DNA from: a virus
DNA length: 60,812 bases
Virus record (IMG/VR): IMGVR_UViG_3300019752_000008
Span: 1-60,812 of that record
Reading direction: 5' to 3' (one strand)
The translations under genes were made by a program, and so were the position numbers. The notes under the pieces were generated by a model. It worked only from the letters and a program-made list of their open reading frames with translations. It made no database searches and was not told the origin of the DNA. This document shows positions 753 to 60,812 of this stretch, piece by piece; within the stretch, counting starts at the first letter, position 1; each line of letters opens with the position of its first letter.

Positions 753-1937
753 TTATCCTTCTGTAAATTCTCTTACATCTATTTGTATATTTGATTTTGT
801 GCTATTTGACGTAAGTGTTGGAGTTGCTCTCGTTACTGCACCATACAAAACAAGAGATTGAAATACTGGGTCGTCCGTATTTTCCCCTATTGCTAGTATT
901 CTTCTATTTATTATTTTAGCCGTTACTTCTGAGTACAAGTCATACTTCGGTGTGTCTATAAATATATCCAGTTGCATAGTTCTCCATACTCTTGTCGGGT
1001 CACCCTCTCCATCAAGGACTATCTCTCCACTGTCAAGTTTTATTATCTCAGAGTCCGTCTCAGTTGGTGTAGGGACTCCATCTTTCGAGACTCCACCATC
1101 CGCAAATCTTCCAACTAAAATCTCTCCTACCTCTGGCAACTCAGCGACATTATTGACTGTCATTTTAACTATCACTTCACCTAAATAGTAAAAATCTGGG
1201 GTAAATATAACTTTCTTATTGTATTTTGGATCTTCCAATGATGAATCGAACCACTCTCTAAAACTTGTAAAGTCCAACATTATGGAGCTTTGCGTTTCTG
1301 CTACTATTTCTACATCATCTGATTTTCTTCTTATTTCTATTTTTATAGTTTCTGCTTTCACATTATACAAAACAAAAGAACTCACATTTTTTGTCTCAAA
1401 CTCTTGCCAAAACGATGTTGCGTTTTTGGATGAAGTTTTATTTATTGCTTTTGCTACAGATGCTGTTCTATTTGAAGCACCTAAATCTTTCCATTTTAGG
1501 GTTGATTCTGTTGGAATATAATAGTCGTGTCTCAGCGAAAAATCTGTCACTTCATCGAAATGTTGTGGTTGAGCATGATCTTCGTCTATAAAACTTATGG
1601 TTCCCGTGAATTTTGAAATATAGTATTTTTCACTAGACACAACATAAACTGTTGTTTCACCGCTTACGATAGGTACAGCACTTCCATCGTCTGTCGTGTC
1701 AGTTAAGGTGGTTGTATTATAGTTATTTTGTGGGTCTGCATCATTCCATATGTAGATTACTAGCTTTTTTGTGCTTGCTTTTGACTGATAAACCCTATCG
1801 TTATATTGCCTTACTACACCCGCACCGCTTATCGTTTCCGACCTACTCCAAGGTGTATTTGTAGTGCCGTCTGCATTTTCATACTCTCCTATATTGCTAT
1901 TTGATATTGTCAAGTCATAAGGAATCAAATATCTCAT
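753..1937 (-). CDS. Tail-tip or baseplate-type structural protein, unknown family
   Basis: A 394-residue protein whose start overlaps the tape-measure stop (TAATG). It is rich in beta-prone Thr, Ser, Val and Ile residues and has no signal peptide or membrane segment. I do not recognise a domain. Its place between the tape measure and the repeat-bearing fibre is where distal tail and fibre-attachment proteins lie in siphophages, so a tail-tip role is inferred from position only. Confidence 0.6.
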   Translation of the reverse strand: MRYLIPYDLTISNSNIGEYENADGTTNTPWSRSETISGAGVVRQYNDRVYQSKASTKKLVIYIWNDADPQNNYNTTTLTDTTDDGSAVPIVSGETTVYVVSSEKYYISKFTGTISFIDEDHAQPQHFDEVTDFSLRHDYYIPTESTLKWKDLGASNRTASVAKAINKTSSKNATSFWQEFETKNVSSFVLYNVKAETIKIEIRRKSDDVEIVAETQSSIMLDFTSFREWFDSSLEDPKYNKKVIFTPDFYYLGEVIVKMTVNNVAELPEVGEILVGRFADGGVSKDGVPTPTETDSEIIKLDSGEIVLDGEGDPTRVWRTMQLDIFIDTPKYDLYSEVTAKIINRRILAIGENTDDPVFQSLVLYGAVTRATPTLTSNSTKSNIQIDVREFTEG

Positions 1938-4900: not shown

Positions 4901-7900
4901 TAGTATAGACAGTGAGTTCGATATAGATTCACTTGCTTGGTCTGAGTCACCTAGTACTGAACCTGTGCCTATATTTGCTACTTGTGAAGCGTGTGCATCG
5001 TATGATGATGATACTGATGTTGTTCCTGCTCCAAACGCTATCCCTGCTTGAGACAGTGTTGTTGCTACCATTGCAGCTACTGCTATTGCTCTTGGTATTG
5101 CTGTATATACATCACCGCTTGACATCTGATGTACTACTGCTGTTGCACCTTCAACTACTGCAAGTGCTGATTGAACCGCTTGCAGTCCTGCTGCTTCTCG
5201 ACTGCCTTGTTCAAATAAAGCTGATGATGCACCTGCTATTTGACCTATCATTTTAAGTTCGTTTTCTTTGCCTTCTACTTTATCTCTTTGATACTGTGCT
5301 GTTATATCCGCAAAGCTCATTAGTACTTGTGCTTCTTTTTTTATACCTGAATCAGATGATGATATGATTGAGTTCATATCATTTATATCATCTATTATTT
5401 TATCCATTCCTTCTAGTTTTATTTTTATAGGATCGATTCTTATTTTTTTAAACTCTGACTCTATTTTATTTATCCATTTCAAAAGGTCATTTTCTTGATC
5501 TGAGCCTTCATATATATCAAACAGTCCTGCGAACATTTCTCCTCTTGTTTCTGGACTCATACCGAACGTGTCTATATCTCTTGTTATATTTGCCACAGAT
5601 TGAGACTTAGCTATACTTTTTTCTATTTTGTCAAAATTATCAGCAAGACTTAAACTTTCTTTATTAGACTTTGCTAATTCTTTAGACATGGTTTCAAATT
5701 TAGTAATTATATTATCTGGGTCTGCTTCCTGTGCGGATATTCTCTCTGCTTCCATTTCATCTCTGAAATCTTTTAGTGTTTTTTTCTTTTTATCAGCGGT
5801 TTCTTTATTTATTTTTGCAATGTCTTTTTGTAGCTCTTTGATAAGTTCTAAAGCTTCTATTTGCTCTTTTTTGTATTCCTTTTTAGACTCTTTATCTGAC
5901 GATTGAAGTATTGCTTTGTCCGTATCAGATATAAACTTTCTTACTTTAGCTATCTCTTGATCTATCTTCCATATCTCGCCTTTTCTTTCTATAGTGGCTT
6001 CTTCGATTTTTTTTCTTACATCGTCATCAAATCCGATTGAAGCTTCCAGTTGTGTTTTCTTTTTAAGTGCCTTTACTCTTTTGTTTGCCTCTTCTATTTG
6101 CTCAGGAACATTATTTATTCTGTCTTGTATCTCGTCAAAGGCTTTATTATATGCACTTATATTTTCTATATGAGTCTGAATAAAAGACTTTTCAAGAGTG
6201 CCATATCTATCATATCCTTTCGTGATGACATCTGTAGATACTTTTATTCTATCACTTATGCTTTGCCTTTCACTTATCAGGTCGTCTCTCGAAGCACCTT
6301 TTTTATATTCTGATACTAAACTTTTTGACCAGTCTACTTTTCTTTCTTCTTGTATTGCAGTTTTATAATCATGAAATTCTTTTAATAAAACAATAACTCC
6401 TGTAATTCCAGCAGCCCATAATGTAAAAGGATTAGGAAAAGGATTTATAGCTGAAAACACATCTTTTATTTTATCTATTTTTCTTACTTTTTTTAGTGTT
6501 CCATCCGCGTTTTTGCCTGCTAGTTCCCAATATCCTGCAAATGTTTTTACACCATCTACTGCTCTTGACCCTATCTCGAACCCTGCTCTTGTTGCTTGAA
6601 AACCTTTATATGCTACAAACATCTCTATTAGTGTTTTAACATAAGGCTCTGCATCTTTTACAAACTGATATGCACTTCTAAAAGTATCTCTTATCTCTGC
6701 ACCATTTTCTTTTAGTATTTGCAACAACTCTTTTGCGGAATCTTTAATATCATCAAAAAGAGGTTTTGCAGAATCCATCATTAGCTCTTGCCACTCTGCT
6801 TTTAGCTTATCCATTGCTCTTTGATAGGTGTCTATATGTTTAAGATTCTCAAACATTTTAAGTCTATCTTTCATTACGTTATAAACTGCACCCACGCTAT
6901 CTTCTGCGTTTTTCTTTGCGTCTTTTATTGCTTTGTTTGCTTGTGTCGGAGTTCCAAATAATAATATTGCAAGTTTTGAATCTCTTGATACGTCTCCCGA
7001 AAATAACGATCTTGCTTCCTCTAATACTAGCTCTGCATTCATTCCTACTGCACTACCCATATTTGTAAGCGATGATGTTATTTCTATTGTGTTATCTATG
7101 ATATCTTGAGTTGTTTTACCAAACCCTTGACCCATCTTTAAAGCGAATCCTATTGACTGTTGAAATACACTTGAAAGCTCTGGAAAGGTTGCTGATGTCT
7201 CTTTTGCAGCATCTTTTAAGTCTAGCATTGTTTTTTGCGAAAGCGAAAGCGAAGCATTAAATCTATCAGTTCCGTTTCCTACTTCGCCTTGGCTATCTAC
7301 AAGTTTTGTATTTGTTGCTATAAGTGCGGCAAGACCAAATGAATTATTTTCTATAGTTTTGTTAAGCTCAACACCCATTCCAATAGTAGCACGATATGCA
7401 CTTACCAGTGCGTATATTCCTATTGCTAAAGTTTCCACTTGTCTTAAATGTCTTACTAATGTATTTGTTGCACTACCCGTAGCTTTTGAGTGTGCCTTTT
7501 GTGCTAAAGTTGCCTCTTTTAGCCTAGCTTTTTCTTTTTCTAGTGCAGTAGCGTATTTTTCTCCCCCTATAGCTCCTGCTTTTTTCATAGTGTTTAGTTT
7601 TTTTACTGCTGAATTATAATTATTTGTTGCTGTTGTGTTTTCGTATAACCGTTGATATTCTTCTTTTAGTGATTTTTTATTTAGTTCTGTTTCTTCTCTG
7701 GCTTTTCTTTTTGCTATTGTTTCTTTATTTAGTGATTGTATTTTTTCTTTTTGTAGCTTTTCAAGAGTGTTTGATGCCTCTTTTTCTATTTGTATTTGCT
7801 TGTCTAGCAGTGTTTCTGCTTCTGCTATTTGATTTTGTTTTGTTTTAAGTTCGCTATTTGCGAAACTTCTAATTTTATTGTTTTTTTCTTTTAATTGGTC

Positions 7901-8440
7901 TAACTCTTGTTTTATTGCCTGTTCTTGTTTTGCGTAAGTTGTTCTAATTCTGCTTGCATCTATTGCTAATAAATCTGATGTTAGTTTTTCTTTTTGTGCA
8001 ATAATCCTTTCGTTTAATTTTTTACTTTGTTCTATATCTGAAACTAAAGACGTAGATGGCATTGCTCCTGATGCTGTTGAAACTTTGTGTTGTTTCATAA
8101 GTGATTCCATCTTTTGATGATTCTTTAATTCTAGACTTTCTATTTGTTGAAGCTGTATTTTTTTGTTGTTAACTTGCTTATTAAGCTCTGTTTTTTGAGC
8201 CTTTGTGTATCCTGAAAGTGTAGTTGATAGTGTAAGTATATCTTTTCTTCTGTTGTTTGTTAATTCTTTTAAAGCAGACGTTAAATCTCTTTCGGATTTC
8301 TCCATAGTTTTATTATCTGCTTTAAAAGTATCAGCAGTTTTTTGATGGACAGACCTGTACTCTTCAAGTGTTTTACTTATTGCTTTTATATCTTTTGTTG
8401 CTAGGTCTTTTACTTTTAGCGTTGTGGTTATATCTGCCAT
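1937..8440 (-). CDS. Tail tape measure protein
   Basis: This is the largest gene, 2167 residues. It sets tail length in long-tailed phages and threads the tail lumen. The N-terminal 350 residues are Lys/Glu/Gln-rich coiled coil. Hydrophobic segments follow, for example near residues 335-365 and 680-700. A long Ala/Gly/Ser-rich stretch lies around residues 1090-1200. The start is the ATG at 8440, overlapping the stop of the chaperone gene (TGATG); an upstream TTG at 8443 is less likely. Two tail chaperone frames precede it, the usual context. At about 2.1 kaa the predicted tail would be long. Confidence 0.92.
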   Translation of the reverse strand: MADITTTLKVKDLATKDIKAISKTLEEYRSVHQKTADTFKADNKTMEKSERDLTSALKELTNNRRKDILTLSTTLSGYTKAQKTELNKQVNNKKIQLQQIESLELKNHQKMESLMKQHKVSTASGAMPSTSLVSDIEQSKKLNERIIAQKEKLTSDLLAIDASRIRTTYAKQEQAIKQELDQLKEKNNKIRSFANSELKTKQNQIAEAETLLDKQIQIEKEASNTLEKLQKEKIQSLNKETIAKRKAREETELNKKSLKEEYQRLYENTTATNNYNSAVKKLNTMKKAGAIGGEKYATALEKEKARLKEATLAQKAHSKATGSATNTLVRHLRQVETLAIGIYALVSAYRATIGMGVELNKTIENNSFGLAALIATNTKLVDSQGEVGNGTDRFNASLSLSQKTMLDLKDAAKETSATFPELSSVFQQSIGFALKMGQGFGKTTQDIIDNTIEITSSLTNMGSAVGMNAELVLEEARSLFSGDVSRDSKLAILLFGTPTQANKAIKDAKKNAEDSVGAVYNVMKDRLKMFENLKHIDTYQRAMDKLKAEWQELMMDSAKPLFDDIKDSAKELLQILKENGAEIRDTFRSAYQFVKDAEPYVKTLIEMFVAYKGFQATRAGFEIGSRAVDGVKTFAGYWELAGKNADGTLKKVRKIDKIKDVFSAINPFPNPFTLWAAGITGVIVLLKEFHDYKTAIQEERKVDWSKSLVSEYKKGASRDDLISERQSISDRIKVSTDVITKGYDRYGTLEKSFIQTHIENISAYNKAFDEIQDRINNVPEQIEEANKRVKALKKKTQLEASIGFDDDVRKKIEEATIERKGEIWKIDQEIAKVRKFISDTDKAILQSSDKESKKEYKKEQIEALELIKELQKDIAKINKETADKKKKTLKDFRDEMEAERISAQEADPDNIITKFETMSKELAKSNKESLSLADNFDKIEKSIAKSQSVANITRDIDTFGMSPETRGEMFAGLFDIYEGSDQENDLLKWINKIESEFKKIRIDPIKIKLEGMDKIIDDINDMNSIISSSDSGIKKEAQVLMSFADITAQYQRDKVEGKENELKMIGQIAGASSALFEQGSREAAGLQAVQSALAVVEGATAVVHQMSSGDVYTAIPRAIAVAAMVATTLSQAGIAFGAGTTSVSSSYDAHASQVANIGTGSVLGDSDQASESISNSLSILEDMAVPQHRLTSQMADHLASIDKKIGGLSANILKAAGFAVGEGYVGFESSTGQDLTVEKIWGTIDKISPFLGTISQAGDIFNDLTGGITNTILGGLFGGGSSTSRTLADAGLTFQSQLIEAAIGNLQGKSYQTILTRIEKDGGWFGSDSVTNIYNTQLRGLERETKRQFELVLGSLYDTVITSGGALDVATEDVKAELSDFYVELGKISLKGKTGEEIQETLTNIFGKVGDEMALEAFPVLESFQKIGEGMFETLTRVSAGMEQAEYFINRLGYDFEDAEYLDIVNKQGVVSIEALTQSIIKYDESVYGANNSVVQMIDMINTSAEDVFETYEAFNDLRDQLSLMGQDATYLTSQMLLGAGGLEELSDAMSNYYENFINDNDKLVLSTQKMNNEFKKLNLAMPVGSNGFKDLVEGIDISTEAGQELYGRVLLLSDGFAELSDQAKSLLDDERDNALELASLREKYQEEQLGFFNTAIDAVRNLSNTFDNMINSIDDTIASLLGASDSADAQDVLIQTFWAKKAETELLLAKDGDLTDTESRRLQALIGDIQGLSTNIQNANIGDNTQITGELVNELSYLQNELNFDNQILKAQIVTASGQDIDVSTDGVLTELSKNMAEYNRTIAEKLTQDSTLEFSDFKAGGLLSTADEIAFRQSFQAESASTFSKELEDLRVNLAYLSLETVNTTDFLTDLSSANNVGYKNIIEFFTSMGEIPQEIKTVDMISNWNNLISSGDFEGFAKSGALQDEDFMSDTFEDYRDILNANLVGYEDYAKKYMNFDELLKYMDASKLQEEGRFWNLEALKDFMTAYADEGFKSMKEHMGFYTSAYTSGTFDSSMLNQEILDSIEDFHGGLNTELSAWKAYADGIKELGGYQYSEAQVENLLENARWYLEEAGYKALDGSHYSGLANVPFDGYRAELHKDERVLTARENRIYTNNLTSNNNKDIIVELRRIDARLASVENISKSINGILDSAKTSRPFRTKVVA

Positions 8441-8880
8441 CAATCTTCCTTTTTATTATTGTAATATTCACTTAGACATTCATCTAAGTATTCTATTGCC
8501 CATCTTATATCATCTAGGTCTGTGAGTTCCATAAATTCATCTTTGTAGTTCAAATAAGACAGATTTATTTCCGCCCTATCTAATCCAGCAAACCCCATCA
8601 TTGAACTTTTAAATTTACTTGATGCTTTGCTTATGAAAAACATAGCTTCTTGTGATTTTAGCTGTGTTGGGATTGGTGGTGAAGAATCTTCAAGCCTCTT
8701 ATTGAATCTTTCAAGTTCTTCACCTTTTAATCTTTTTCTTTTTCTATCTGCTGTTTTACTTAGTCCAGCATATATGTTTATATTCTCACTTGATTTCCAT
8801 TCTATATAAAGGGCTAGTTCTTTTCCAGATAAGTGCTCTGTCTTGAAAGTGCTTTGTCTACAAAAAGAGACTTCTCCCAT
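8440..8880 (-). CDS. Tail assembly chaperone, frameshift extension (GT-type)
   Basis: A 146-codon frame that overlaps the preceding chaperone gene by 67 nt in the -1 frame. Its ATG at 8880 has no Shine-Dalgarno sequence, and its first 20 or so codons lie wholly inside the upstream gene. It is therefore more likely translated as a -1 frameshift fusion, as in lambda G-GT. The unique part is charged and helical. It stops at the tape-measure ATG. Confidence 0.7.
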   Translation of the reverse strand: MGEVSFCRQSTFKTEHLSGKELALYIEWKSSENINIYAGLSKTADRKRKRLKGEELERFNKRLEDSSPPIPTQLKSQEAMFFISKASSKFKSSMMGFAGLDRAEINLSYLNYKDEFMELTDLDDIRWAIEYLDECLSEYYNNKKED

Positions 8881-18402: not shown

Positions 18403-20454
18403 CTAAAAGTGGTCATTTTCTGATACATTTGGTGTGTGATATTGGACATTTTTACTATCCATTAGTCTTATTTCTCTTTTTGTTAACTCTCTTGGTTTTT
18501 CTACTAGATGATAACTTAACGAGTGCCATCTAGTAACACTTGAAACAATACAGTCATACAAGTCATTTCTTACTGATTCGTTTATCTTTTGATAAGATTT
18601 GAAATTATCTGTTTTTCCTGTTTCTGGATTCGTATGATATATATAATGTTCAGATGTCATCATTCTTTCAAAGTCTTCTCTTTTTGATGATATATTTTTC
18701 TCTATCCTCTCGTCAAATAGTCTCACGGGCTTATTGTTTATCCAAAACATTCTTTCTTTATAAAGTTGCGATTCTTCAAACCCTACTTCGCCGTCATCAT
18801 GTTTAATCCTTTCTATACTTCTATTTATCATATCTGTAAGTTCTAGTTTTGCTTGAAGATTGTTTATTTTCAGTATCTTTGTAGTTGTTCCTTTTATAGT
18901 TCTAAAATCAAACATGGGTATCATTTTTTGACCACTTTCTCCCTCTGAAGCATATATATAATCTGGTCGCCCCACCTCTTTGTCTATTAATTGTACCCAC
19001 TCAAGAACCAGCTTTGTTCTTTCTTTTACACCTCTACTATCTATTGTTACGTGATCTACATATCTTATTTGACCATGCCTATCTGTGAGTAGTTTTTTTC
19101 TTATGATGTCAAGCTCTTCAAAGGATTCTGCTCTTCCATAGTCCACTACATTACATATTGACCCGTATTGCCATGCTGTTATAGTAAACCAAAAATGCGT
19201 AAGCTGAGTATCAATGTCCATAAATATTTTATATGTATCATCTGGTATTATGTTCTCTTCAAGCCCGTTTGATATTCTTAATATATCACTCTTTTTAACA
19301 GTTTCCTTTATCTCTTCTTCGTATGGTTCGTTGTAGTATCCTTCAAAGTGTTCTTTTAGTGCATCTCTTCTTAGTGCAGGGTCTTTTAGAACTATAGCTT
19401 CTAAATAAGATGTTGCGATATCTTCAAAACTTAAAAAATAAGACAAAAACGAATTTGCACTAAAGCCTACTGTTTTAGGGTCTTTTTTGTTTCCTTTAAC
19501 TATCCATTCTATTTTATTTTCTTTTATTTGCATATCTTTTTGTTCGCTAGTTATTGATTCACCACATGAATTACATTCGTAGTATGCTAAACTTTGAGCC
19601 AATGGGATATATTTTTCCGACATTATCTCATCTGTAAATGTATCGTCATCATATCCATAAGTGTCTTTAAACTCTCCTATTTCCATTATTCTAAATTGAG
19701 TCCATACCACTTCTATCAAGTCTGAGCAATGAGGGCAATACATCCCTAGAAAGTTTTTTTGTTCACAACTATTAAAACTCTGGGTAATTGTTCCGTTTTT
19801 GGTCTTCTTTGTTGATGCAATCACCATCATTGCACCAACTTTTAGAAATGTTTTTGCTCTTTGCCATAAAGGAGCTATTGCAGCTAATCCGTCTATTTCA
19901 TCTGCTTCATCTACAAGTATAAGTTTTGCTGTAATAGACTTTTTATCATCATCTACTTTTGACCCAATAAGAAATGTGTGTGACCCTCCGTGCGACAATT
20001 CACCTATTTTGTTAGCACTCCTGTTTTCTTCTATCCTTGCTTCTTCTATCATGTTTCTCAAATGAGGACTTACATTTATGTGGGAATCTATCTTTGCTTT
20101 TTGGTATTTAGAGACTAATTTGTCTTTACTTATCATCCATACACAATCTTTACCGTCCATCTTTGCATTTTTTGCAAAAATTATAAACAGAACTGTAGTT
20201 TTTGCCATTTGAGAAGCAAACATTAGTGTTATTTTTTGCGTTCTTCCGTTATCCACTGATTCTAATACTTTTATTAAATGTGGCGTTAAATAAAAACTTA
20301 TCAATTCTCTTGCATTAAATGGAGAATTTGATGGTAGATGCACATACTTCTCTGCGAATTCCTTAAGACTTATGGATTTAGCCCATTTAAGCATCCTAGT
20401 AATTATAGGTATATTTGATAATAGTTCTTTTCTTCTTTTTTTTGAAATTTTCAA
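18403..20454 (-). CDS. terL: Terminase large subunit (lambda gpA family)
   Basis: A 683-residue packaging motor. A Walker A-like segment lies at residues 80-87 (ASQMAKTT), Walker B at 178-183 (LILVDE), and a coupling motif near 212-216 (IASTK). CPHC (240-243) and a later CNSCG form a candidate zinc site. The nuclease half has FMDIDTQ, VTIDSRG and a late DLYDC acidic cluster. Length fits the GpA family (about 640-690). The apparent start is TTG at 20454, with GAGGT upstream; an ATG 20 codons later is the alternative. Confidence 0.9.
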   Translation of the reverse strand: MKISKKRRKELLSNIPIITRMLKWAKSISLKEFAEKYVHLPSNSPFNARELISFYLTPHLIKVLESVDNGRTQKITLMFASQMAKTTVLFIIFAKNAKMDGKDCVWMISKDKLVSKYQKAKIDSHINVSPHLRNMIEEARIEENRSANKIGELSHGGSHTFLIGSKVDDDKKSITAKLILVDEADEIDGLAAIAPLWQRAKTFLKVGAMMVIASTKKTKNGTITQSFNSCEQKNFLGMYCPHCSDLIEVVWTQFRIMEIGEFKDTYGYDDDTFTDEIMSEKYIPLAQSLAYYECNSCGESITSEQKDMQIKENKIEWIVKGNKKDPKTVGFSANSFLSYFLSFEDIATSYLEAIVLKDPALRRDALKEHFEGYYNEPYEEEIKETVKKSDILRISNGLEENIIPDDTYKIFMDIDTQLTHFWFTITAWQYGSICNVVDYGRAESFEELDIIRKKLLTDRHGQIRYVDHVTIDSRGVKERTKLVLEWVQLIDKEVGRPDYIYASEGESGQKMIPMFDFRTIKGTTTKILKINNLQAKLELTDMINRSIERIKHDDGEVGFEESQLYKERMFWINNKPVRLFDERIEKNISSKREDFERMMTSEHYIYHTNPETGKTDNFKSYQKINESVRNDLYDCIVSSVTRWHSLSYHLVEKPRELTKREIRLMDSKNVQYHTPNVSENDHF

Positions 20455-34083: not shown

Positions 34084-34821
34084 CTATACTCCTATTTTTT
34101 CTTTTAGTGTTTCGTAGTCTGTAACACCAGCATATTTTATATATCCAAATAAGTCCAGCTCTGTTTCATCAATTTTTTTTAATATTTCTTTCGGGAGAAT
34201 GTCTCTCAGTTCTGCCTCTTTGCTTATATTGTTATCTTTTTTATATTTAGCTCCGCTCATTCCTAGTGCCTTCATATTTATAAGCGTTGATATGTTTTGA
34301 TATGCAAATTTTTTAGCATTATCACTTTCTTGACTTGGAATATAAGTATCTTTTATTGCTTCTGCAAGTGGAATGAAGTGTATTTTAGTGTTGGAACGCT
34401 CTATCTTAAGTTCATTTGAATGAGTGATTAATTTCTCTATAAAGTCATCCATCATTATTTCAAAGTCCATATCAATCCATCTTAAAAAATGTAAAATTAC
34501 TTTTGAATGTATCCATGTTCCAGAGTTGTATTTTCCTCTGACTGTTTTTGTTAGTTTTAAATATGTAGTTTTTCCCATATTTAAAAGCTCTTCTTTTTTC
34601 CGAATATATTCTTTTGTCGATTCTCTTCTCATATACTCATTTATATTTTTGCTATACATTTTTGCTATTTGAGTAGCATTGAAAAATGCACTGTCTGAAT
34701 TTATTGGCTCTTTAAGTAATTGCTTTATATCTATTTCTAGCTCACCTTTTGGTGTTTTCAATGATAAGAATTTGCTACTTAAAGTAACTTTTGAGAAATC
34801 TGTTGTTATAATACTTTCCAT
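34084..34821 (-). CDS. KilA-N domain antirepressor-type protein
   Basis: A 245-residue protein. A KilA-N DNA-binding domain spans about residues 40-125 (FFNATQIAKMYSKNINEYMRR, then GTWIHSKVILHFLRWIDMDF). This family includes phage antirepressors and transcription factors. The start is the ATG at 34821, with AAGGAG seven bases upstream; an in-frame ATG at 34848 would read through the ribosome site. A dyad in the leader can cover that site. Confidence 0.82.
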   Translation of the reverse strand: MESIITTDFSKVTLSSKFLSLKTPKGELEIDIKQLLKEPINSDSAFFNATQIAKMYSKNINEYMRRESTKEYIRKKEELLNMGKTTYLKLTKTVRGKYNSGTWIHSKVILHFLRWIDMDFEIMMDDFIEKLITHSNELKIERSNTKIHFIPLAEAIKDTYIPSQESDNAKKFAYQNISTLINMKALGMSGAKYKKDNNISKEAELRDILPKEILKKIDETELDLFGYIKYAGVTDYETLKEKIGV

Positions 34822-34879
34822 AAGTATCTCCTTTGTATTTTGTTTCAATCTAATTGTACATTAGAGATACTTAAAGTAT
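34822..34879 (-). promoter_or_regulatory. Possible RNA switch covering the KilA-N ribosome site
   Basis: On the minus strand, AAGTATCTC (34872-34864) can pair with GAGATACTT (34830-34822), nine perfect pairs that bury part of AAGGAG. The same AAGTAT can instead pair with ATACTT just upstream (34879-34874), a mutually exclusive hairpin. The upstream dyad might also be a protein operator, since AAGTAT/ATACTT recurs at 49174-49187. Confidence 0.5.
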
Positions 34880-41118: not shown

Positions 41119-42489
41119 ATGAGTAAAGAACTAACAACTGTAGAAAACGAAACTGGTGTGTTGGATTCAATACAAAACCTAGATAGTCTTAGTGCTATTA
41201 TAGAAAAAGAAAAAGATATTAAAGCAAGTGCTTCTGTATATCTCAATGGTGATGAATTCAATTTTATCGTAACAGAAAATAATGCAAGTGACGCAACAAC
41301 TAAGATTGCAGATATTAATAAGACTAAAAAGTCTTTTAAAGAGATGATTAAGCCTATCATAGATAAAGAATCTTCTGATATTCAGAAAGTGGAAAGTTTA
41401 GCAAAAGATATTGTTGATATGATGACCGCTAAATACAACAATAGAAAAGATGAGATATCGCAAGCACTTGAAAAAACTTTTATTGCACGTGAGAATTGGA
41501 TAAAAGAATATTTTATAAAACTAATAAGCAAGTGTATTATAGATATTGATATTAAATCTTTTGAGTCTTGTTGTAAAGCAAACAGAAACAAAACAACTTG
41601 GAAACTAAATGCAGATGGCACACCAAATAAAACTGCACTTGATAAAATAACAGCAGAGTTTGACACTATTGCCAATCCTTTGATTGAAGCAAAACTTGAG
41701 AAAGATAGAAAGGATGAAGAGTTAAGAGTTTTAAACGAGCAGAAACAAAAAGAAGAATTATTTTTATATAATCAACTTAAAGACATCAAGACTAGCGGGA
41801 CTGATGATGAGTTAAACAATTCTCTTGAAAAACTTAAGGATATTGACTCTAATATTGATACTTTATATACTTCTATTGCTACAGAAGCCAAAAGACAAGT
41901 TTCAAACATAATGGCTTTTGTAAACAATGGTCTTGAAACTAATAAAAAACACAGAGAAGATGTTGCTAGAAAAGAGGAAGAGTTAAGATTGAAAGAAGAG
42001 GAAAAGATTAAAGAGCAATTTGAGCCACGTTGGACTGAAAACAAAATCAGAAGTATTTTTGAAAAGCCTTATGGTCAAATGAATTTGTCTCTCGAAGATG
42101 CAGGTATGCACATGGACACAATCTCTAGCTATAACTTTGAACAGTTTGGAGACTTAAAGCAATTTGCTATAAATATTGCTAATCGTCAGATTTCTATTCT
42201 TGATAAGATTAGATATGCTATTGAAAAAAGACTTGAAAGTGAAGGTGAAAAAACTCCTGCACCAAAAACGGATGAGGGATATACTATATATAATATTCTA
42301 GTTACTTTAAAAGGTAATGAATTTGTAAATAGTCAATATATTGCAGCCCTTGAAAGTTCTACTAATATTTTATCATTAAAAATCAAAGACCCATATGGAA
42401 TAGATGAAGAGCAAGTTAAAACTCTAGCTAGAAACAAAATACTTAGTGATAGATGTGATGATGCTATTGAAAGTATTGAGGTTATTTAG
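41119..42489 (+). CDS. DUF1351-like protein, 456 aa
   Basis: A Lys/Glu-rich, largely coiled-coil protein. The N-terminal region (KKSFKEMIKPIIDKE near residue 80) and overall pattern match the DUF1351 group, found beside phage recombination genes. It follows the regulator without a gap. Function unknown; a recombination or DNA-end accessory role is suggested by context. Confidence 0.65.
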   Translation: MSKELTTVENETGVLDSIQNLDSLSAIIEKEKDIKASASVYLNGDEFNFIVTENNASDATTKIADINKTKKSFKEMIKPIIDKESSDIQKVESLAKDIVDMMTAKYNNRKDEISQALEKTFIARENWIKEYFIKLISKCIIDIDIKSFESCCKANRNKTTWKLNADGTPNKTALDKITAEFDTIANPLIEAKLEKDRKDEELRVLNEQKQKEELFLYNQLKDIKTSGTDDELNNSLEKLKDIDSNIDTLYTSIATEAKRQVSNIMAFVNNGLETNKKHREDVARKEEELRLKEEEKIKEQFEPRWTENKIRSIFEKPYGQMNLSLEDAGMHMDTISSYNFEQFGDLKQFAINIANRQISILDKIRYAIEKRLESEGEKTPAPKTDEGYTIYNILVTLKGNEFVNSQYIAALESSTNILSLKIKDPYGIDEEQVKTLARNKILSDRCDDAIESIEVI

Positions 42490-48005: not shown

Positions 48006-48141
48006 TGACTGTGAAAAATGTGTCCTTGAGTTTAAAGGACGACTAATAGAAGAAAAACATCCGATAACTGGTAAAGATATTGTTATTTGTGATAATTGTT
48101 GGGCTTTAATGTTGAGAGAGATTGATAAGGACAAAAAGTGA
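47989..48141 (+). CDS. Zinc-ribbon miniprotein, 50 aa
   Basis: TTG start directly behind GAGGTG; the TGA overlaps the next GTG. C8/C11 and C34/C37 form a clear zinc ribbon. It is encoded just before a methyltransferase and may be coupled to it. Confidence 0.6.
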   Translation: MIKRNSDCEKCVLEFKGRLIEEKHPITGKDIVICDNCWALMLREIDKDKK

Positions 48142-48758
48142 AAAAGAAATTTTTAAATCTATATGGCGGTATTGGTGGAAATGTAAAACTTTTAGATAGA
48201 AATGAGTTTAATATTACTACTGTTGAACTTGATGAAAATATAGCATCAGTTTATCGTGATATGTTTCCAAATGATACTTTAATTATAGGAGATGCACATC
48301 AATATTTATTAGAAAATTTTGATAAGTTTGATTTTATTTGGGCTAGCCCTCCTTGTCCTACTCATAGCAAACTTAGAACCTTAAACGAAAACAAAGTTTT
48401 TCCTGATATGAAACTGTATGAGGAAATTATTTTTTTAAAACACTGGTTTAAAGGAAAATATGTAGTGGAAAATGTAGAACCATATTACGATTATCTTATT
48501 AAGGCTACTAGAGTAATACATCGTCACCCCGTTTGGTGTAACTTTGAAATTTCAAATAAGCAATTTAAAAATCTTAAAACTTGCAAGATTGAAAACGAAA
48601 GGGAGTTTTTAGAAAAAGAATTTGGCTATGATCTTTCCAAATATAAAGGTATCGACAAAAGAAAAGTCTTGCGAAACTGTGTAGTTCCTGAACTTGGTAA
48701 ACATATAGTTGGATGTGCATTTGGCAAAAATACCATAGAAGAAGGTTACCTTTTTTAA
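48138..48758 (+). CDS. DNA cytosine-C5 methyltransferase
   Basis: A 206-residue protein with GTG start. An N-terminal SAM site (NLYGGIGGN, residues 7-15), catalytic Cys73 in SPPCPTHS and ENV at 111-113 are the core C5 motifs. It is short, so the target-recognition part is small. Likely protects phage DNA from host restriction. Confidence 0.85.
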   Translation: MKKKFLNLYGGIGGNVKLLDRNEFNITTVELDENIASVYRDMFPNDTLIIGDAHQYLLENFDKFDFIWASPPCPTHSKLRTLNENKVFPDMKLYEEIIFLKHWFKGKYVVENVEPYYDYLIKATRVIHRHPVWCNFEISNKQFKNLKTCKIENEREFLEKEFGYDLSKYKGIDKRKVLRNCVVPELGKHIVGCAFGKNTIEEGYLF

Positions 48759-50949: not shown

Positions 50950-51942
50950 ATGACAAATAAACCAATACATAAGTTAGGACTTCCTTATATGGGTAGCAAA
51001 AGAAAGTTAGCAAAACCAATAATTGATTATATATTAAAACATAATCTAAATACTAAATATTTTTATGATGTATTTGGCGGTGGCGGTGCCATGAGTTTAG
51101 AAGCTATTCAAAGACCCAAAATAAAAGAAGTTTTTTATAATGATTTTAATACAGGTATAACTGAGCTTTTAAAAAAACTTGCCAAAGATGGTGTAGTAGG
51201 TGAGATGTATAAGTGGATAGATAGAGATACTTTTAAAAAGCATAAAGATGATGATACTTGGTATGGTGGATATTTAGCTACTGTTTGGAGTTTTGGAAAT
51301 AATAAAGATAAAGGGTATCTGTACGGAGCAGATATAGAAGAGGACAAAAAACTACTCCATAAAATTATAGTTTTTTCTTGCCAAGACTCTCTTAATATTT
51401 TAAATAACAAATATAATATTGGTATAAATCTTAATAATGGTATTTTTAAAGAAGATGTCATCCAAAGAAGACTTAGAATTGTTTCGGAAATTAAATCCTT
51501 TATTTGCTCTGATAATAGCAATCCTCTGGTGCAACATCTTATTATGATAGAGTCTTTAACACGACTACAGAACCTACAGAACCTACAGAACCTACAGAAC
51601 CTACAGAACCTACAGATATCGAATCTAAGCTACGAAAAAGTAAACATAACTACTGATCCTAAAGAAACTATAATATTTCTTGATCCACCTTATATAGATA
51701 CTGCAAAATACACTAAAGGAATTTGCCATAAGGAACTTTATGATTGGATTGAGCAACTTACCGATAAAGGATATAAAGTTTATCTTACAAGCTACGAAAG
51801 TCCTTTAATATGTGTAAAAGAATTTAAACATAGAAGTACGCTATCTGCAACTGCTAACAATGAGGTAACCGAGAAACTATTTAGTAATTTTAAGGATGTT
51901 ATAGAGCCTGAAAAAGTTATGACACAGGGGAGTCTATTTTAA
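50950..51942 (+). CDS. DNA adenine-N6 methyltransferase (Dam/D12 class)
   Basis: A 330-residue protein. YMGSKRKL (residues 13-20), the SAM-binding DVFGGGG (40-46) and catalytic DPPY (245-248) are the D12-class motifs. A run of LQN tripeptides (206-222), coded by a 9-bp tandem repeat, sits between the two halves. Probably protects phage DNA against restriction or timing signals. Confidence 0.88.
   Translation: MTNKPIHKLGLPYMGSKRKLAKPIIDYILKHNLNTKYFYDVFGGGGAMSLEAIQRPKIKEVFYNDFNTGITELLKKLAKDGVVGEMYKWIDRDTFKKHKDDDTWYGGYLATVWSFGNNKDKGYLYGADIEEDKKLLHKIIVFSCQDSLNILNNKYNIGINLNNGIFKEDVIQRRLRIVSEIKSFICSDNSNPLVQHLIMIESLTRLQNLQNLQNLQNLQNLQISNLSYEKVNITTDPKETIIFLDPPYIDTAKYTKGICHKELYDWIEQLTDKGYKVYLTSYESPLICVKEFKHRSTLSATANNEVTEKLFSNFKDVIEPEKVMTQGSLF
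51565..51615 (+). repeat. 9-bp tandem repeat CTACAGAAC, about 5.7 copies
   Basis: Five full copies and a partial copy in the Dam-like gene, encoding (LQN)n. The 9-bp unit preserves frame, so copy number could vary freely. Confidence 0.9.
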
Positions 51943-52289: not shown

Positions 52290-52392
52290 CTTAATGAGCG
52301 TCCAAACTCATCTATGCTCTAGCACTTGCTAGGGCGTTCATTAAGGTTATTAATTTTTATGATAGATAGTTTGGACGCATTCAATCATAAAA
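52290..52392 (+). ncRNA. Pseudoknot RNA leader 2 (before KilA-N gene)
   Basis: Helix A: CTTAATGA (52290-52297) with TCATTAAG (52338-52345). Helix C: GCTCTAGC (52316-52323) with GCTAGGGC (52328-52335), ACUU loop. B: GCGTCCAAACT (52298-52308) with AGTTTGGACGC (52368-52378). D: TTTTATGAT (52355-52363) with ATCATAAAA (52384-52392). Same order and spacing as leader 1, with compensatory changes in every helix. B sequence and AAGG next to A' could control translation of the antirepressor. Confidence 0.82.
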
Positions 52393-53099
52393 CCTTAAAA
52401 TTTATTGTTCCGAAAGAAAACATGAACGAACTTTCCAAAGTTTTTAATGGTACACCGATAAAGGTGCAAGAAACTAATGGTGAACTGTTTTTTGACATAA
52501 GTGGTGTATCTGGAAGATATAAGAAGAATATCACTGATTGGAAAAACAGCAAAGAAACCTTAAATTACATTGAAGAGTTAGAAAAATCTAATCCTTTAGA
52601 TTATATTAAGGTTATCAAAGAAAGAGGCTCGCAACCAAAAACATTTATTCATAAAAAATTACTTATGCTATTTGCAAGATTTATAAATGTTAAATTTGCT
52701 ATATGGTGTGATGAAATTATTGAGTCAATACTAATAGGTGAAAAATCTTTAATCAACAATCAGCTACTCATGAAAGAAACTCAACTTAAAAATGCACAAA
52801 AACAACTAAGTGAAGTATCTAAAAATAATATGAAAACATATAAAGATGGATTCATGTCTCTTAGAAAATATATAAAAGATAGAAACATTAAAATCAGTCA
52901 AGATTTAGCTATAGAAAAATTACTTGAAAATAAGATCATAGACTACAAAGAGGTTGTAATAAATAAGCAACAACTTATAGAATCTTACTACGGATATCAA
53001 GAAAGTGAAGGTACAGGTATAAAGTTTAATCCTCGTGCTTTAGATGAGTTGTTTGTTTATGAGAATGAAGCTAGTTTATTTGATATGGGAGAATCTTGA
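52359..53099 (+). CDS. KilA-N domain antirepressor-type protein
   Basis: A 246-residue protein. The KilA-N signature appears at about residues 80-130 (QPKTFIHKKLLMLFARFINVKFAIW). The C-terminal half is helical with a further DNA-binding-like part. The start is taken as the ATG at 52359, in the RNA leader's D helix; an ATG at 52422 (MNEL) aligns with the start of the Rha-like gene and is the alternative. A TTG further upstream is unlikely. Confidence 0.8.
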   Translation: MIDSLDAFNHKTLKFIVPKENMNELSKVFNGTPIKVQETNGELFFDISGVSGRYKKNITDWKNSKETLNYIEELEKSNPLDYIKVIKERGSQPKTFIHKKLLMLFARFINVKFAIWCDEIIESILIGEKSLINNQLLMKETQLKNAQKQLSEVSKNNMKTYKDGFMSLRKYIKDRNIKISQDLAIEKLLENKIIDYKEVVINKQQLIESYYGYQESEGTGIKFNPRALDELFVYENEASLFDMGES

Positions 53100-53929
53100 T
53101 GATTGATTTATATAAAGGTGACTGTTTAGAGGTTATGGATGAGCTTATAGCTAAAGGTGTAGTTGTAGATGCAATAATTACAGACCCACCTTATGGTACA
53201 ACTGCTTGTAAGTGGGATTCAGTTATACCTATGCCTGATATGTGGCTCAGACTAAATAAACTCATCAAATCAAATGGTGCAATAGTACTTTTTGGAAGTG
53301 AGCCTTTTAGTAGTACTTTAAGAATGAGTAATATTAAGAACTATAAGTATGATTGGATTTGGGAGAAACAATATGCCACTAACTTCATGGGAGCTAAAAA
53401 TGCACCATTGAAGTATCACGAGAATATATCTGTTTTTAGTAACAATAAGCACTTTTACAATGGGCAACAATATAAAGTTATTGAATTAGAAGAAATACAA
53501 AATATGGATAAAAAATCATTATTGTCTTTTTTTACAGATAGGCTTTATGATAGGTTTGCAAAAGTGGACAGAAGAAAAAATGTTAACAATATAGAAGATA
53601 GGGGGGAATGTCACTTAGGAAAAGTAAAACACACTAGAAAAATAGATGATGGTTTTAGAAATCCAAAAAGTGTTATTAAAATAAATGGAAGTAAAAATAA
53701 TAATGTACATCCAACACAAAAACCAGTAGCACTAATGGAATATCTAATAAAAACATATACAAATGAGGGTGAGTTAGTTTTAGACTTCACTATGGGTAGT
53801 GGAACGACGGGTGTAGCTTGTAAGAACTTAGGTCGTGACTTTATCGGTATAGAGATGAATGATAAGTATTTTGACATAGCGAAAAAGCGTATAGAAGATA
53901 CAGTAGTAGAGAAAGGGTTGATTGACTAA
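53099..53929 (+). CDS. DNA N6-adenine/N4-cytosine methyltransferase
   Basis: A 276-residue protein. DPPY at 29-32, HPTQKP near residue 205 and an LDFTMGSGTTG SAM site near 230 give the beta-class order. The start is the ATG at 53099 overlapping the KilA-N stop, with GGGAG upstream. The SAM motif has MGSG in place of the common FAGSG, yet is otherwise complete. Confidence 0.88.
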   Translation: MIDLYKGDCLEVMDELIAKGVVVDAIITDPPYGTTACKWDSVIPMPDMWLRLNKLIKSNGAIVLFGSEPFSSTLRMSNIKNYKYDWIWEKQYATNFMGAKNAPLKYHENISVFSNNKHFYNGQQYKVIELEEIQNMDKKSLLSFFTDRLYDRFAKVDRRKNVNNIEDRGECHLGKVKHTRKIDDGFRNPKSVIKINGSKNNNVHPTQKPVALMEYLIKTYTNEGELVLDFTMGSGTTGVACKNLGRDFIGIEMNDKYFDIAKKRIEDTVVEKGLID

Positions 53930-57154: not shown

Positions 57155-57166
57155 CACTTCTTTTAT
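57141..57166. terminator. Bidirectional terminator between converging operons
   Basis: GAAGGTGTC and GACACTTC pair (one bulge) around a T-rich loop, followed by TTTTATTTTG. It separates the converging methyltransferase and endolysin genes. Confidence 0.7.
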
Positions 57167-57795
57167 TTTGACATCTCCAAGTGGGACATTCTATTGTCCC
57201 ATCCGCTTAAATATCTACCGTATTTGTCTGGATTTGATTTCCATAATTTTATATATATAGATTTCATATTTGATAACATTCTTGTTTCAAAGTGATACCC
57301 TTCGCTTTCTAGGCTAGTTATAAAATCTAGTCCATTCTTTGTTTTTTCACCATACGAGCCATCTATTGATGATAAGTTGCTAGGAAAGTTAAATATTACA
57401 CTCATTTCCAATAGAGCTTCTTGCACTGCTTTCCATGCGTTTTTAGGGCTATTTGTATACATAGAGTACATAGCTACTTGACATTCTTTTGGAAATAGTT
57501 CCATATGTGCATCTTTTAAAAAGTCTCTGTAGAACCCTTCTGCTAGTTGTTGCACACCATAAGCTGATTTCTCAACTAGACTATTTACTATTTTTATATC
57601 ATCATTATTCCACTCTTTTGTATCTTTGTCTATATCTAAACTTTCAGCTAACTCCACTATATACTGATACATTCTTGAATTTGGTTTTAGATATATACCA
57701 TATGGACAAGTTATGTCCTCTTCACCTTCATTTCGGTGAACTAGTTTACTTTCTACTTCACCTATGTATTTTACTACTTCTTTTATATCTTTCAT
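57163..57795 (-). CDS. Endolysin, GH108-like N-acetylmuramidase
   Basis: A 210-residue protein. An N-terminal acidic EG segment followed by PYGIY, then a SPKNAWKAVQEALLE region and GSYGEKTKNGLDF near the end follow the GH108 plus PG-binding_3 order (EGG..., W/A.K.LQ.AL..., DG..G..T..A). It would cut peptidoglycan at lysis. No signal peptide, so it likely needs the holin encoded upstream. ATG at 57795 behind AGGA; a GTG upstream is less likely. Confidence 0.65.
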   Translation of the reverse strand: MKDIKEVVKYIGEVESKLVHRNEGEEDITCPYGIYLKPNSRMYQYIVELAESLDIDKDTKEWNNDDIKIVNSLVEKSAYGVQQLAEGFYRDFLKDAHMELFPKECQVAMYSMYTNSPKNAWKAVQEALLEMSVIFNFPSNLSSIDGSYGEKTKNGLDFITSLESEGYHFETRMLSNMKSIYIKLWKSNPDKYGRYLSGWDNRMSHLEMSK

Positions 57796-57796
57796 T

Positions 57797-58066
57797 TTAT
57801 ATTCCTGCACTGTTTATTATTTTAAATTCGTAGCTTTTTTTAAGCATTTTAAACGACTCGTAGTATATTGAATTTTCCTCTATATGTAATTCTATTTCTC
57901 TTATCGCTTGTCCTATTTCATCCATAGTTAACAAAGGACTTATTAAAACTTGACCTACCTCTTCGATATACATTTCTTCAATCTTTTCTCTGGCACTTTT
58001 TGCATTATCTATCCTAGCTTGTTTAGCTACCATTCCATCTATTGCATCCTGCTCAAGTATTGGCAT
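57797..58066 (-). CDS. Hypothetical helical protein in lysis cassette, 89 aa
   Basis: The start is the ATG at 58066, after the holin-like stop; a longer frame reaches into that gene. Helical, Glu/Ile-rich, no signal peptide or membrane helix. Possibly an endolysin partner, by position only. Confidence 0.5.
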   Translation of the reverse strand: MPILEQDAIDGMVAKQARIDNAKSAREKIEEMYIEEVGQVLISPLLTMDEIGQAIREIELHIEENSIYYESFKMLKKSYEFKIINSAGI

Positions 58067-58070
58067 TGTG

Positions 58071-58625
58071 TTATATTCTTTTACTATCAGCTTCTGTTTT
58101 GCTTGATCCAAAATAGAATGCAAGAACATATCCAAGAGACAGTGTTAGTGAGTTGTTTATACCTACTATTACTGTTTGATTTAGTTCTTCCGTAGCTCCT
58201 ATAAGCATTGAAAACCATAGTCCAAAAGTAGATACTACTACAAAAATTGCTATTATACTGCCTGTATTTCTTACTAGCCAATCTTTTGATGACTGTAGAT
58301 TTACGTTCATTTTTCTTGATGAGTCTTTGTCTTTTAACACTTCTGATGTATTAAATTCATCATGACGATTATCTTCTTTTTTATTTTCAAGTGCTAATTT
58401 TTCTAATTCTATTTTATCACTTGATTCTAGCTCTTGAAGTTTTACTATCTGCTCATTTGTTAAGCCGTTTTTTTTCACATCTTCTGATGATAGGTCGATA
58501 CCTGTTTTTTTTGATACATAATCTATCGCTTTATCTGCTCCACCTTCTATTGCGTTTTTTACTACATTTAGTCCTTTGTCTGCTAACATTGAAGTTATTG
58601 CTGCTATTGCTCCTGCTATTATCAT
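58071..58625 (-). CDS. Holin-like membrane protein, 184 aa
   Basis: A hydrophobic N-terminus, a charged coiled middle, and two membrane segments in the C-terminal third (TGSIIAIFVVVSTFGLWFSML and SLTLSLGYVLAFYFG). Overall plan resembles the three-TM phage holins. It precedes the endolysin gene in the transcript. Confidence 0.65.
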   Translation of the reverse strand: MIIAGAIAAITSMLADKGLNVVKNAIEGGADKAIDYVSKKTGIDLSSEDVKKNGLTNEQIVKLQELESSDKIELEKLALENKKEDNRHDEFNTSEVLKDKDSSRKMNVNLQSSKDWLVRNTGSIIAIFVVVSTFGLWFSMLIGATEELNQTVIVGINNSLTLSLGYVLAFYFGSSKTEADSKRI

Positions 58626-58628
58626 CTA

Positions 58629-59102
58629 TTACCCTTTCTTTATTAATTCTATTGCTACTTTTACTAAGTCGTTAGCAATTCTTAGTTTTTTAAAAACATC
58701 ATCGTCACAGTCAGTTTCTTTTTTAACTATCATCTCTTCTATTTTATTATATATCTTTCCTATATCTATAATCGGTTTTTTTACTATAGATATACACTCT
58801 ATTCCTTCATAGTTACAAAGAAGATCACTGTATGCAGACATTATCACTATAGGTATTACTTTTATATGTTTTTTACTCATTACATATTCTATTAAATCTG
58901 ACCCTGTTCCAAATCCGTTTACTGTTGGCATATTAATATCCGTGATAAGCACATCAATGTTTTCTTTCTCTATAATATCCCTTGCTTCACTTCCATCATT
59001 TGCTCCAATTACTGTACAATACAACTTTTTAAGTTCTCTCTCTAAAGATAGCCTTACTATTGCTTCATCTTCTGCTATGAGTATCGTTAGATTCTTTTTC
59101 AT
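58629..59102 (-). CDS. CheY-like response regulator receiver protein
   Basis: A 157-residue receiver domain. Acidic pocket E11-D12, phospho-acceptor D55 in LITDINMP, S89 in VIMSAYS and K109 in KKP are the receiver signature. No output DNA-binding domain; a short helical C-terminal tail is present. It overlaps the upstream gene (ATGA) and lies between membrane and holin genes, so it is expressed late. Phosphorylation by a host histidine kinase and a link to host signalling or lysis timing are inference. Confidence 0.85.
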   Translation of the reverse strand: MKKNLTILIAEDEAIVRLSLERELKKLYCTVIGANDGSEARDIIEKENIDVLITDINMPTVNGFGTGSDLIEYVMSKKHIKVIPIVIMSAYSDLLCNYEGIECISIVKKPIIDIGKIYNKIEEMIVKKETDCDDDVFKKLRIANDLVKVAIELIKKG

Positions 59103-59452
59103 TTTAAAATCCATGTTAAAACCGCTGTTATCACTATAGACAACAATGTTCCAAAAATTGTAAGTATTTTAGTAATCTTTCCATAATCACTTCTCTCTAC
59201 AATTAATTTAACCTGATTCTCTAGCTTTTCTCTTGCTTCATCTGTATTTAGATACGCTTGAACCTCTTTTAAAGCTCTTTTTTTAAACTCATCATCTAGG
59301 TCATTGTTGTTTTTTATCAAGTCCAAAACTTCTTCTTTAAAGTTTTTTCTCCATTCCAAAAGCTCTTGATACTTTTCTTCTAGTCTTGGAACTTCGCTTG
59401 TGTTTTTGGATATTTCAGTTAGTATGTCAAGTAGTTTTTCATCTTCGTTCAT
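59099..59452 (-). CDS. Coiled-coil protein with C-terminal membrane helix, 117 aa
   Basis: Acidic coiled coil over residues 1-85 and one membrane helix at the C-terminus (ILTIFGTLLSIVITAVLTWIL). A layout like XhlA or spanin-related lysis proteins. Coupled to the outer-membrane-like gene upstream by one base. Confidence 0.6.
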   Translation of the reverse strand: MNEDEKLLDILTEISKNTSEVPRLEEKYQELLEWRKNFKEEVLDLIKNNNDLDDEFKKRALKEVQAYLNTDEAREKLENQVKLIVERSDYGKITKILTIFGTLLSIVITAVLTWILK

Positions 59453-59943
59453 TAGAACTCTTTCCTTAATCCAAATTTAGCCACGGACACTTTAGGTGTG
59501 ACCATCCCGTCCATGTAAAAATATTCTCCAAATCTAAGCCCTATAGTAGCTCCTACAGCTAAACCTGAATTTTTCTCACCTTCTTTGCATCTATGAAGAT
59601 TTATACCACCACAATATCCCTCTTGATATCCTATGTATCCTGTTGTGTTTATGGCTATTGTGTCGTTTATTTTATACTCTAGCTCGTGTACAGTGCCCCA
59701 GTATTCCGTTGGTGCTTCGTAAGAGTTTCGTTCCATCTTATAGTGCGACAAGCCGTAAGAGTAGTATTTGTTGTATCTTTTAAATATAGATATTCCTCTT
59801 CCTTTGTTATCAAAGCCTTCTAGGAGGTTCATGTCTTTTAATTTATCGCTATGTTTTGAATAACTAACTAAATCTTTTTTTACGTGATAATTACTTGCAA
59901 AACTTGATGCAATTATTCCGAATAATAAAATTAACTTTTTCAC
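59452..59943 (-). CDS. Outer-membrane beta-barrel-like exported protein
   Basis: GTG start overlapping the upstream stop. Residues 1-16 are a signal peptide (Lys-rich start, hydrophobic core, SFA cleavage). The mature part has alternating hydrophobic residues, two Cys close together and a C-terminal Phe, all features of a small outer-membrane barrel. In a phage lysis/fibre cassette this may alter the host surface. Confidence 0.6.
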   Translation of the reverse strand: MKKLILLFGIIASSFASNYHVKKDLVSYSKHSDKLKDMNLLEGFDNKGRGISIFKRYNKYYSYGLSHYKMERNSYEAPTEYWGTVHELEYKINDTIAINTTGYIGYQEGYCGGINLHRCKEGEKNSGLAVGATIGLRFGEYFYMDGMVTPKVSVAKFGLRKEF

Positions 59944-60335
59944 TTATCTAGCACCTCTATAGCTTCTAATCTTAACCTTGTTACTTCTTCAGGAACAGCA
60001 ATGCCTCTTTCAACTAATCTTTCTATATACCATCCAGTATCTGAAAGATACTTTTCTGCCTCTGTCCTTTTCTTTTTTAACTTCAGACTATTTATTCCTT
60101 CAGATATATCATCATTAGTCATTTTTGATATATCTTCTGTGAAAATACAACCCTCAATTTCAGTATTCTCTGAAATTAAGTGCAACTTTCTTTCACTTAT
60201 AATTTTTCTTTCACTCTCGTTTTCGCCTAAGCTTCTTACTTCAATTTTTTGTTGCAAATCTGGAAAATATGCTATCACCTCATCAAGGCTGTGTGCGTAC
60301 ATTAAAAATTCTTTCTCGGTATTATATATTTTCAT
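59940..60335 (-). CDS. Tail fibre assembly-like protein
   Basis: A 131-residue protein directly behind the fibre gene. The C-terminal LSDTGWYIERLVERGIAVPEEV pattern matches fibre-assembly chaperone ends (TDW...R..E.G..IP.E). GAAAGGA ribosome site. Confidence 0.65.
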   Translation of the reverse strand: MKIYNTEKEFLMYAHSLDEVIAYFPDLQQKIEVRSLGENESERKIISERKLHLISENTEIEGCIFTEDISKMTNDDISEGINSLKLKKKRTEAEKYLSDTGWYIERLVERGIAVPEEVTRLRLEAIEVLDK

Positions 60336-60362: not shown

Positions 60363-60812
60363 TTACAGCCCGCTAATTGATACATAATTAGGTCTTTTAT
60401 TAATTGCTGTCAATATGGCTGTTATTCCATGATGTACCCCATTATTAAACGGCACATAATACACATATCTGCCGTCATATACCGCTCCTTGAAAACCTTT
60501 GGCTCCTGAGTTTCCTAATGATAAATCTATGTAGGCTACTGAATTGTCTGTAGTGTCTAGTATGGCTGTTATACCATGATATACCCCAGTGTAAAAAGGA
60601 ACATAATACACATATCTGCCGTCATATACCGCTCCTCTGAAACCCCTAGCATTTGAGTTTCCTAATGATAAATCTATGTAGGTTACTGAATTGTCTGTAG
60701 TGTCTAGTATGGCTGTTATTCCAAAATATGCCCCATTGTAATAAGGAACATAATACACATATCTGCCGTCATATACCGCTCCTTGAAAACCTTTGGCTCC
60801 TGAGTTTCCTAA
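60363..60812 (-). CDS. Tail fibre with tandem repeats, C-terminal part
   Basis: The continuation of the frame that starts at 748, in frame when the 43-bp end overlap is removed. It holds the remaining copies of the 49-residue repeat and ends at a TAA in 60363-60365 after a SISGL end. The repeats differ at the four residues after YYVP (NNGV, YTGV, YNGA), positions that could face the receptor. Confidence 0.75.
   Translation of the reverse strand, partial: LGNSGAKGFQGAVYDGRYVYYVPYYNGAYFGITAILDTTDNSVTYIDLSLGNSNARGFRGAVYDGRYVYYVPFYTGVYHGITAILDTTDNSVAYIDLSLGNSGAKGFQGAVYDGRYVYYVPFNNGVHHGITAILTAINKRPNYVSISGL

Follow-up and report, generated by a model that had tools for sequence, protein, structure and literature searches.

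We describe a stand-alone receiver domain encoded within a lysis cassette of a 60,812-base virus record (the window, by which we mean the whole stretch of DNA analysed), where its gene is translationally coupled to that of a membrane coiled-coil protein. Lone receivers hold the same position in several phages that infect the marine bacterium Alteromonas and are otherwise unrelated, a hint that in some phages the timing of lysis is linked to host signalling. Our reading, to which we give a probability of roughly one half, is that the receiver partners the coiled-coil protein, is switched by phosphorylation and so tunes lysis according to host kinases. Lysis timing is usually seen as a clock set by holin and antiholin, with few known inputs from host physiology, and to our knowledge no single-domain response regulator is known in a lysis operon. 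Phage-borne lone receivers as such are already known; the link to lysis, which we infer, would be surprising if true. The genes concerned are as follows.

60363-60812, minus strand: 3' part of a tail fibre gene with repeats of ~50 aa (5' part at 2-748)
59940-60335, minus strand: probable tail-fibre assembly chaperone, 131 aa, after the fibre gene (suggested by sequence pattern; weak phrog_27919 match)
59452-59943, minus strand: 163-aa protein with a signal-peptide-like N-terminus, possibly an outer-membrane beta-barrel (phrog_19183, E 7e-4)
59099-59452, minus strand: 117-aa charged coiled-coil-like protein with one C-terminal transmembrane (TM) segment, an XhlA-like layout
58629-59102, minus strand: stand-alone receiver domain, 157 aa (Pfam, active-site residues, PDB, AlphaFold)
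58071-58625, minus strand: holin-like membrane protein, 184 aa, with two TM segments and a hydrophobic N-terminus (phrog_1544, E 8.6e-10)
57797-58135, minus strand: 112-aa soluble protein with a TTG start, overlapping the preceding gene by 65 nt
57163-57810, minus strand: endolysin candidate whose C-terminal domain matches the NrS-4 lysozyme

The receiver ORF is listed as 58629-59114, and the ATG at 59102-59100, giving 157 aa, was preferred over the longer ORF's start at 59114 because it overlaps the TGA of the upstream gene (ATGA). The identity of the product as a receiver is far above chance expectation: Response_reg (PF00072) is matched with an E-value of 8e-15 and 55 bits (cut-off 30), a comparison with PDB sequences gave 82 distinct matches at E<=1e-3 with receivers at the top, and the AlphaFold model matches receiver-domain structures with a mean pLDDT of 63, being poor after residue 90. 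The complete receiver site claimed in a preliminary description of this DNA is indeed present, with E11, D12, D55, S89 and K109 all found where it had placed them. A four-residue insertion lies just after G63/F64, and nothing follows the domain except a predicted C-terminal helix (residues 135-156). The protein thus has both the fold, acidic pocket, phospho-Asp, Ser/Thr and Lys of a single-domain (CheY-type) response regulator and that class's lack of an output domain. CheY and Spo0F are likewise receiver domains alone with a full active site, but they are host-encoded and their kinases and targets are known. A DNA-binding regulator of the PhoB/OmpR type was rejected for the window gene, since Pfam detects no winged-helix output domain, and neither a kinase nor an HPt domain was found by Pfam among the 39 window proteins scanned. 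The divergent cREC receiver of jumbo phages is also a phage-encoded receiver-like domain, but it is linked with NAD/cyclic-nucleotide genes (PMC7824862), whereas the window gene gives a standard Response_reg match; its membership of cREC was rejected because the NAD/ADP-ribose enzyme neighbourhood is absent, its neighbours being lysis and tail genes.

That the lone receiver is coupled to a membrane coiled-coil gene inside a lysis cassette, as the preliminary description had it, is supported by the ATGA overlap and by the match of the endolysin candidate. The coil gene shares 1 nt with the gene before it and 4 nt with the receiver, and a gap of 3 nt separates the receiver from the holin-like gene. 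The charged helical region of the coil protein is 44% charged, with a marginal heptad signal (p about 0.07). Its layout of coil plus C-terminal TM segment is that of the XhlA type, but its sequence does not match that family: there was no phrog_937 match, and hhalign gave a probability of 1.5% to the coil of phages XX1924 and PB15. The lysis identity of the cassette is supported by the endolysin candidate, whose similarity to the Nitratiruptor phage NrS-4 lysozyme (37% over 60 aa, E 4e-7) is confined to the C-terminal domain, and by the two-TM holin-like protein, whose best relative (2e-5, 92% covered) is encoded directly before an annotated chitinase-type lytic enzyme. The NrS-4 lysozyme itself belongs to the endolysin family phrog_315, and the candidate has no Pfam match. 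The holin-like protein also gives a weak match to an annotated 3TM holin, and phrog_1544 is a family of unknown function. We note in passing that the product of 59452-59943, encoded between the fibre chaperone and the lysis genes, is beta-rich and might be an outer-membrane protein made by the phage.

All of these genes belong to a late block on the minus strand, which includes terminase (18403-20454), portal, protease, tape measure (1937-8443), fibre and chaperone, and continues through the signal-peptide protein, the coil-TM protein, the receiver, the holin-like protein and the 112-aa protein to the endolysin candidate. A 43-bp direct terminal repeat (1-43 and 60770-60812) lies inside the fibre repeats, and since overlapping the two ends restores a single fibre frame, a circular map is probable despite the classification of the record as linear. 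The record was probably broken within the repeated fibre gene, so its number of fibre repeats may be wrong. Single-sequence IMG/VR scans with the receiver, portal, terminase, two-TM protein and endolysin returned no close relatives, and one GTDB scan with the receiver returned only generic receivers at 25-42%. PF00072 was missing from all four terminase-related records (two of them fragments), from which we regard the receiver as an accessory gene. Similarity of the terminase and endolysin to those of Nitratiruptor phages, together with base composition, suggests a host in the Campylobacterota. No tRNA was found in the window, and there was no match to a plasmid Rep. The early region carries three DNA methyltransferase genes, at 48138-48758, 50950-51942 and 53096-53929 (classes C5, D12-type N6 and N6/N4); KilA-N proteins are encoded at 34084-34848 and 52326-53099, with no integrase among the proteins scanned; and the 456-aa product of 41119-42489 shows a weak match, below the cut-off, to the Colicin E5 ribonuclease domain (2e-4).

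Phages H4/4 and R8W were found by searching with E. coli CheY, and through them R9Y1-3, XX1924, PB15 and PT11-V19; V22 and A5 were reached through published papers. Many of the receiver matches from INPHARED lay in unannotated short or very large records that resembled host DNA, and these were left out. In H4/4 and R8W, in R9Y1-3, in XX1924 and PB15, in V22 and in A5, the receiver gene comes immediately after that of a small coiled-coil protein containing a hydrophobic segment and is adjoined by holin, spanin or endolysin genes, with exactly one receiver per phage. The gene order is fibre, class II holin, one-TM coil, receiver, two-TM protein and terminase in H4/4; TM-coil, receiver and GH108 endolysin in R9Y2; XhlA-type coil, receiver, DUF5675 or peptidase M15, and GTA_holin_3TM in XX1924 and PB15 (the scan for the last family covered XX1924, whose protein has a near-identical counterpart in PB15); and coil, receiver, Rz-like spanin (7e-6 and 3e-8) and two-TM protein in V22 and A5, followed in A5 by the annotated endolysin. 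IMG/VR relatives repeat the R9Y, H4/4, V22 and A5 arrangements, and in those of the V22/A5 type a lipoprotein-like ORF is nested in the Rz-like spanin. The preliminary description had called a lone receiver unusual for phages, which holds in general; the same placement nevertheless turns up again in Alteromonas phages, in at least five backbones whose receivers have intact sites and in one more whose site is degenerate.

The published copies have been read otherwise by their authors. V22 gp30 (a myovirus) and A5 gp11 (a schitovirus) were listed as CheY-like auxiliary genes of the host-recognition module (PMC7289586, PMC10579305). Like the window gene, they encode lone receivers of ~150 aa with an intact site, directly after a coil gene, downstream of fibre and chaperone and upstream of membrane lysis genes; unlike it, they belong to another receiver lineage and have the Rz-like spanin as their next neighbour. 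No receiver was found in P24, a phage said to have its recognition module in common with A5. The R8W copy was interpreted as PhoB acting at low phosphate (PMC8228385). We reject this reading for R8W and for its counterpart H4/4 gp44, as there is no DNA-binding domain and the 153 aa of gp44 are too short to fit one beside the receiver; both are lone receivers between one-TM coil and two-TM proteins and beside the holin, as in the window. XX1924 and PB15 share with the window a coil with a C-terminal TM segment, an ATGA overlap with the receiver, and a lysis enzyme and holin thereafter, but their coil belongs to the recognised XhlA/hemolysin family (phrog_937, 1e-12 and 2e-16). No report linking a phage receiver with lysis was found in the open-licence literature.

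The 8 aligned receivers all agree in the acidic pocket, phospho-Asp, Ser and Lys, while identity to the first row is only 21-43%. Loss of D55 in relatives had been proposed as a check on the earlier description; the phospho-Asp is kept in every Alteromonas receiver but that of PT11-V19, these being analogues of the window protein and not close homologues. The PT11-V19 receiver (L053:5998-6450) has lost the DxxMP phospho-Asp segment and the Lys, still overlaps its TM-coil gene, and offers a natural pseudo-receiver control. The junction between coil stop and receiver start is ATGA in the window, H4/4, R9Y2, XX1924 and PB15, whereas V22 and A5 have gaps of 1-2 nt. For PB15 this follows correction of the start of the response regulator (L052:5989-6387), whose annotated start seems 21 nt late; the upstream ATG gives MKKRVFVMDD and the overlap.

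In a phylogenetic tree all nine Alteromonas receivers fell in one group (97/88), with the window receiver outside it and nearer to the sampled bacterial receivers, although its exact placement among these is unsure, since they were gathered by similarity to the window protein and the branches are long. A separate origin of the window receiver is the better-supported reading of this tree, and because the Alteromonas group excludes it, the lysis-cassette position was probably reached at least twice, by repeated recruitment to the same slot. Position alone is weak evidence, as cargo genes are often found where a late operon ends, close to fibre and lysis genes. If the lysis cassette is taken as ~1/10 of phage genes, this rough positional argument is worth at most a factor of 100 with only two independent recruitments counted, and the case therefore also rests on the unvarying presence of a coil partner and on conservation of the active site.

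Under the mechanism we propose, the receiver would be made late, probably together with the holin-like protein and the endolysin, and the single-pass membrane coiled-coil protein to which it is translationally coupled would be its likely direct partner. Since the receiver has no DNA-binding or enzymatic output domain, action through protein contact would be expected. Phosphorylation of D55 by a host histidine kinase or by acetyl phosphate would change the alpha4-beta5-alpha5 face, and binding to the coil protein, and through it to the holin, would be switched such that lysis comes earlier or later according to the state of the host. Somewhat more tentatively, we suggest that coil and receiver form a module for phosphorelay-gated lysis in some tailed phages, one that would draw on different bacterial receivers, recruited on more than one occasion, and would have moved among unrelated phages. 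Several findings count against lysis tuning: the window coil has no detectable homology to the coils of R9Y and H4/4, which share a C-terminal motif, or to the XhlA-type coils of XX1924 and PB15; the hydrophobic segment of the V22 and A5 coil proteins is N-terminal and weak; PT11-V19 retains the pair despite the loss of its phospho-Asp, with the TM-coil and receiver facing a two-TM protein and DUF5675 on the other strand; and in at least one phage, the uncultured siphovirus ct7ZZ929 (L049:227-613), a lone receiver lies away from any annotated lysis gene.

The strongest rival, unlikely in our estimate yet the main alternative, is that the receiver is a decoy for host signalling, draining phosphate from host kinases or competing with host CheY or other regulators and so changing chemotaxis or stress responses in late infection. 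The cassette would then do no more than supply strong, late expression. A complete active site without an output domain, like that of CheY and Spo0F, fits a decoy, as does the published reading of the V22, A5 and R8W copies as auxiliary host-signalling genes (PMC7289586, PMC10579305, PMC8228385). What it leaves unexplained is the small coiled-coil membrane gene that precedes the receiver in every lysis-linked case, and a receiver lodged between lysis genes in six or more phage backbones.

Less probable still is that a host receiver was simply taken up as cargo where the late operon is permissive, its presence there having nothing specific to do with lysis. Its absence from the terminase relatives favours cargo, as does the window receiver's being closer to bacterial receivers in the sample than to those of Alteromonas phages. 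Against it speak the overlap with the upstream reading frame, the intact active site, the fact that receivers of two unrelated lineages occupy the same slot, and the way R9Y-type and V22/A5-type phages from separate samples have stably kept the gene. We consider it least probable of all that the receiver fold serves as a phosphorylation-independent adaptor, a scaffold for the coiled-coil lysis protein with a dispensable active site. PT11-V19, which keeps the pair with a receiver lacking phospho-Asp and Lys, favours this reading. Against it, no catalytic position is lost in any of the other receivers despite their low overall identity, a pattern not easily accounted for unless phosphorylation matters.

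If lysis tuning by the receiver is true, host signal transduction would be wired directly to the lysis decision by a receiver in the cassette, and the published PhoB and CheY auxiliary genes of Alteromonas phages would need re-interpretation. As the module is present in cultured phages, the idea is directly testable.

Two further phage response regulators came to light. In the Mu-like phage Komp_PAO1_1 the match was dropped, being a LuxR-type response regulator with an output domain encoded on the strand opposite the annotated gene (L047:4986-5771); the annotated minus-strand ORF there seems spurious, the plus strand encoding the regulator. Stenotrophomonas phage Bhz63 (L054:6001-7547) carries a PhoP-like response regulator beside a putative sensor kinase, perhaps a whole two-component system.
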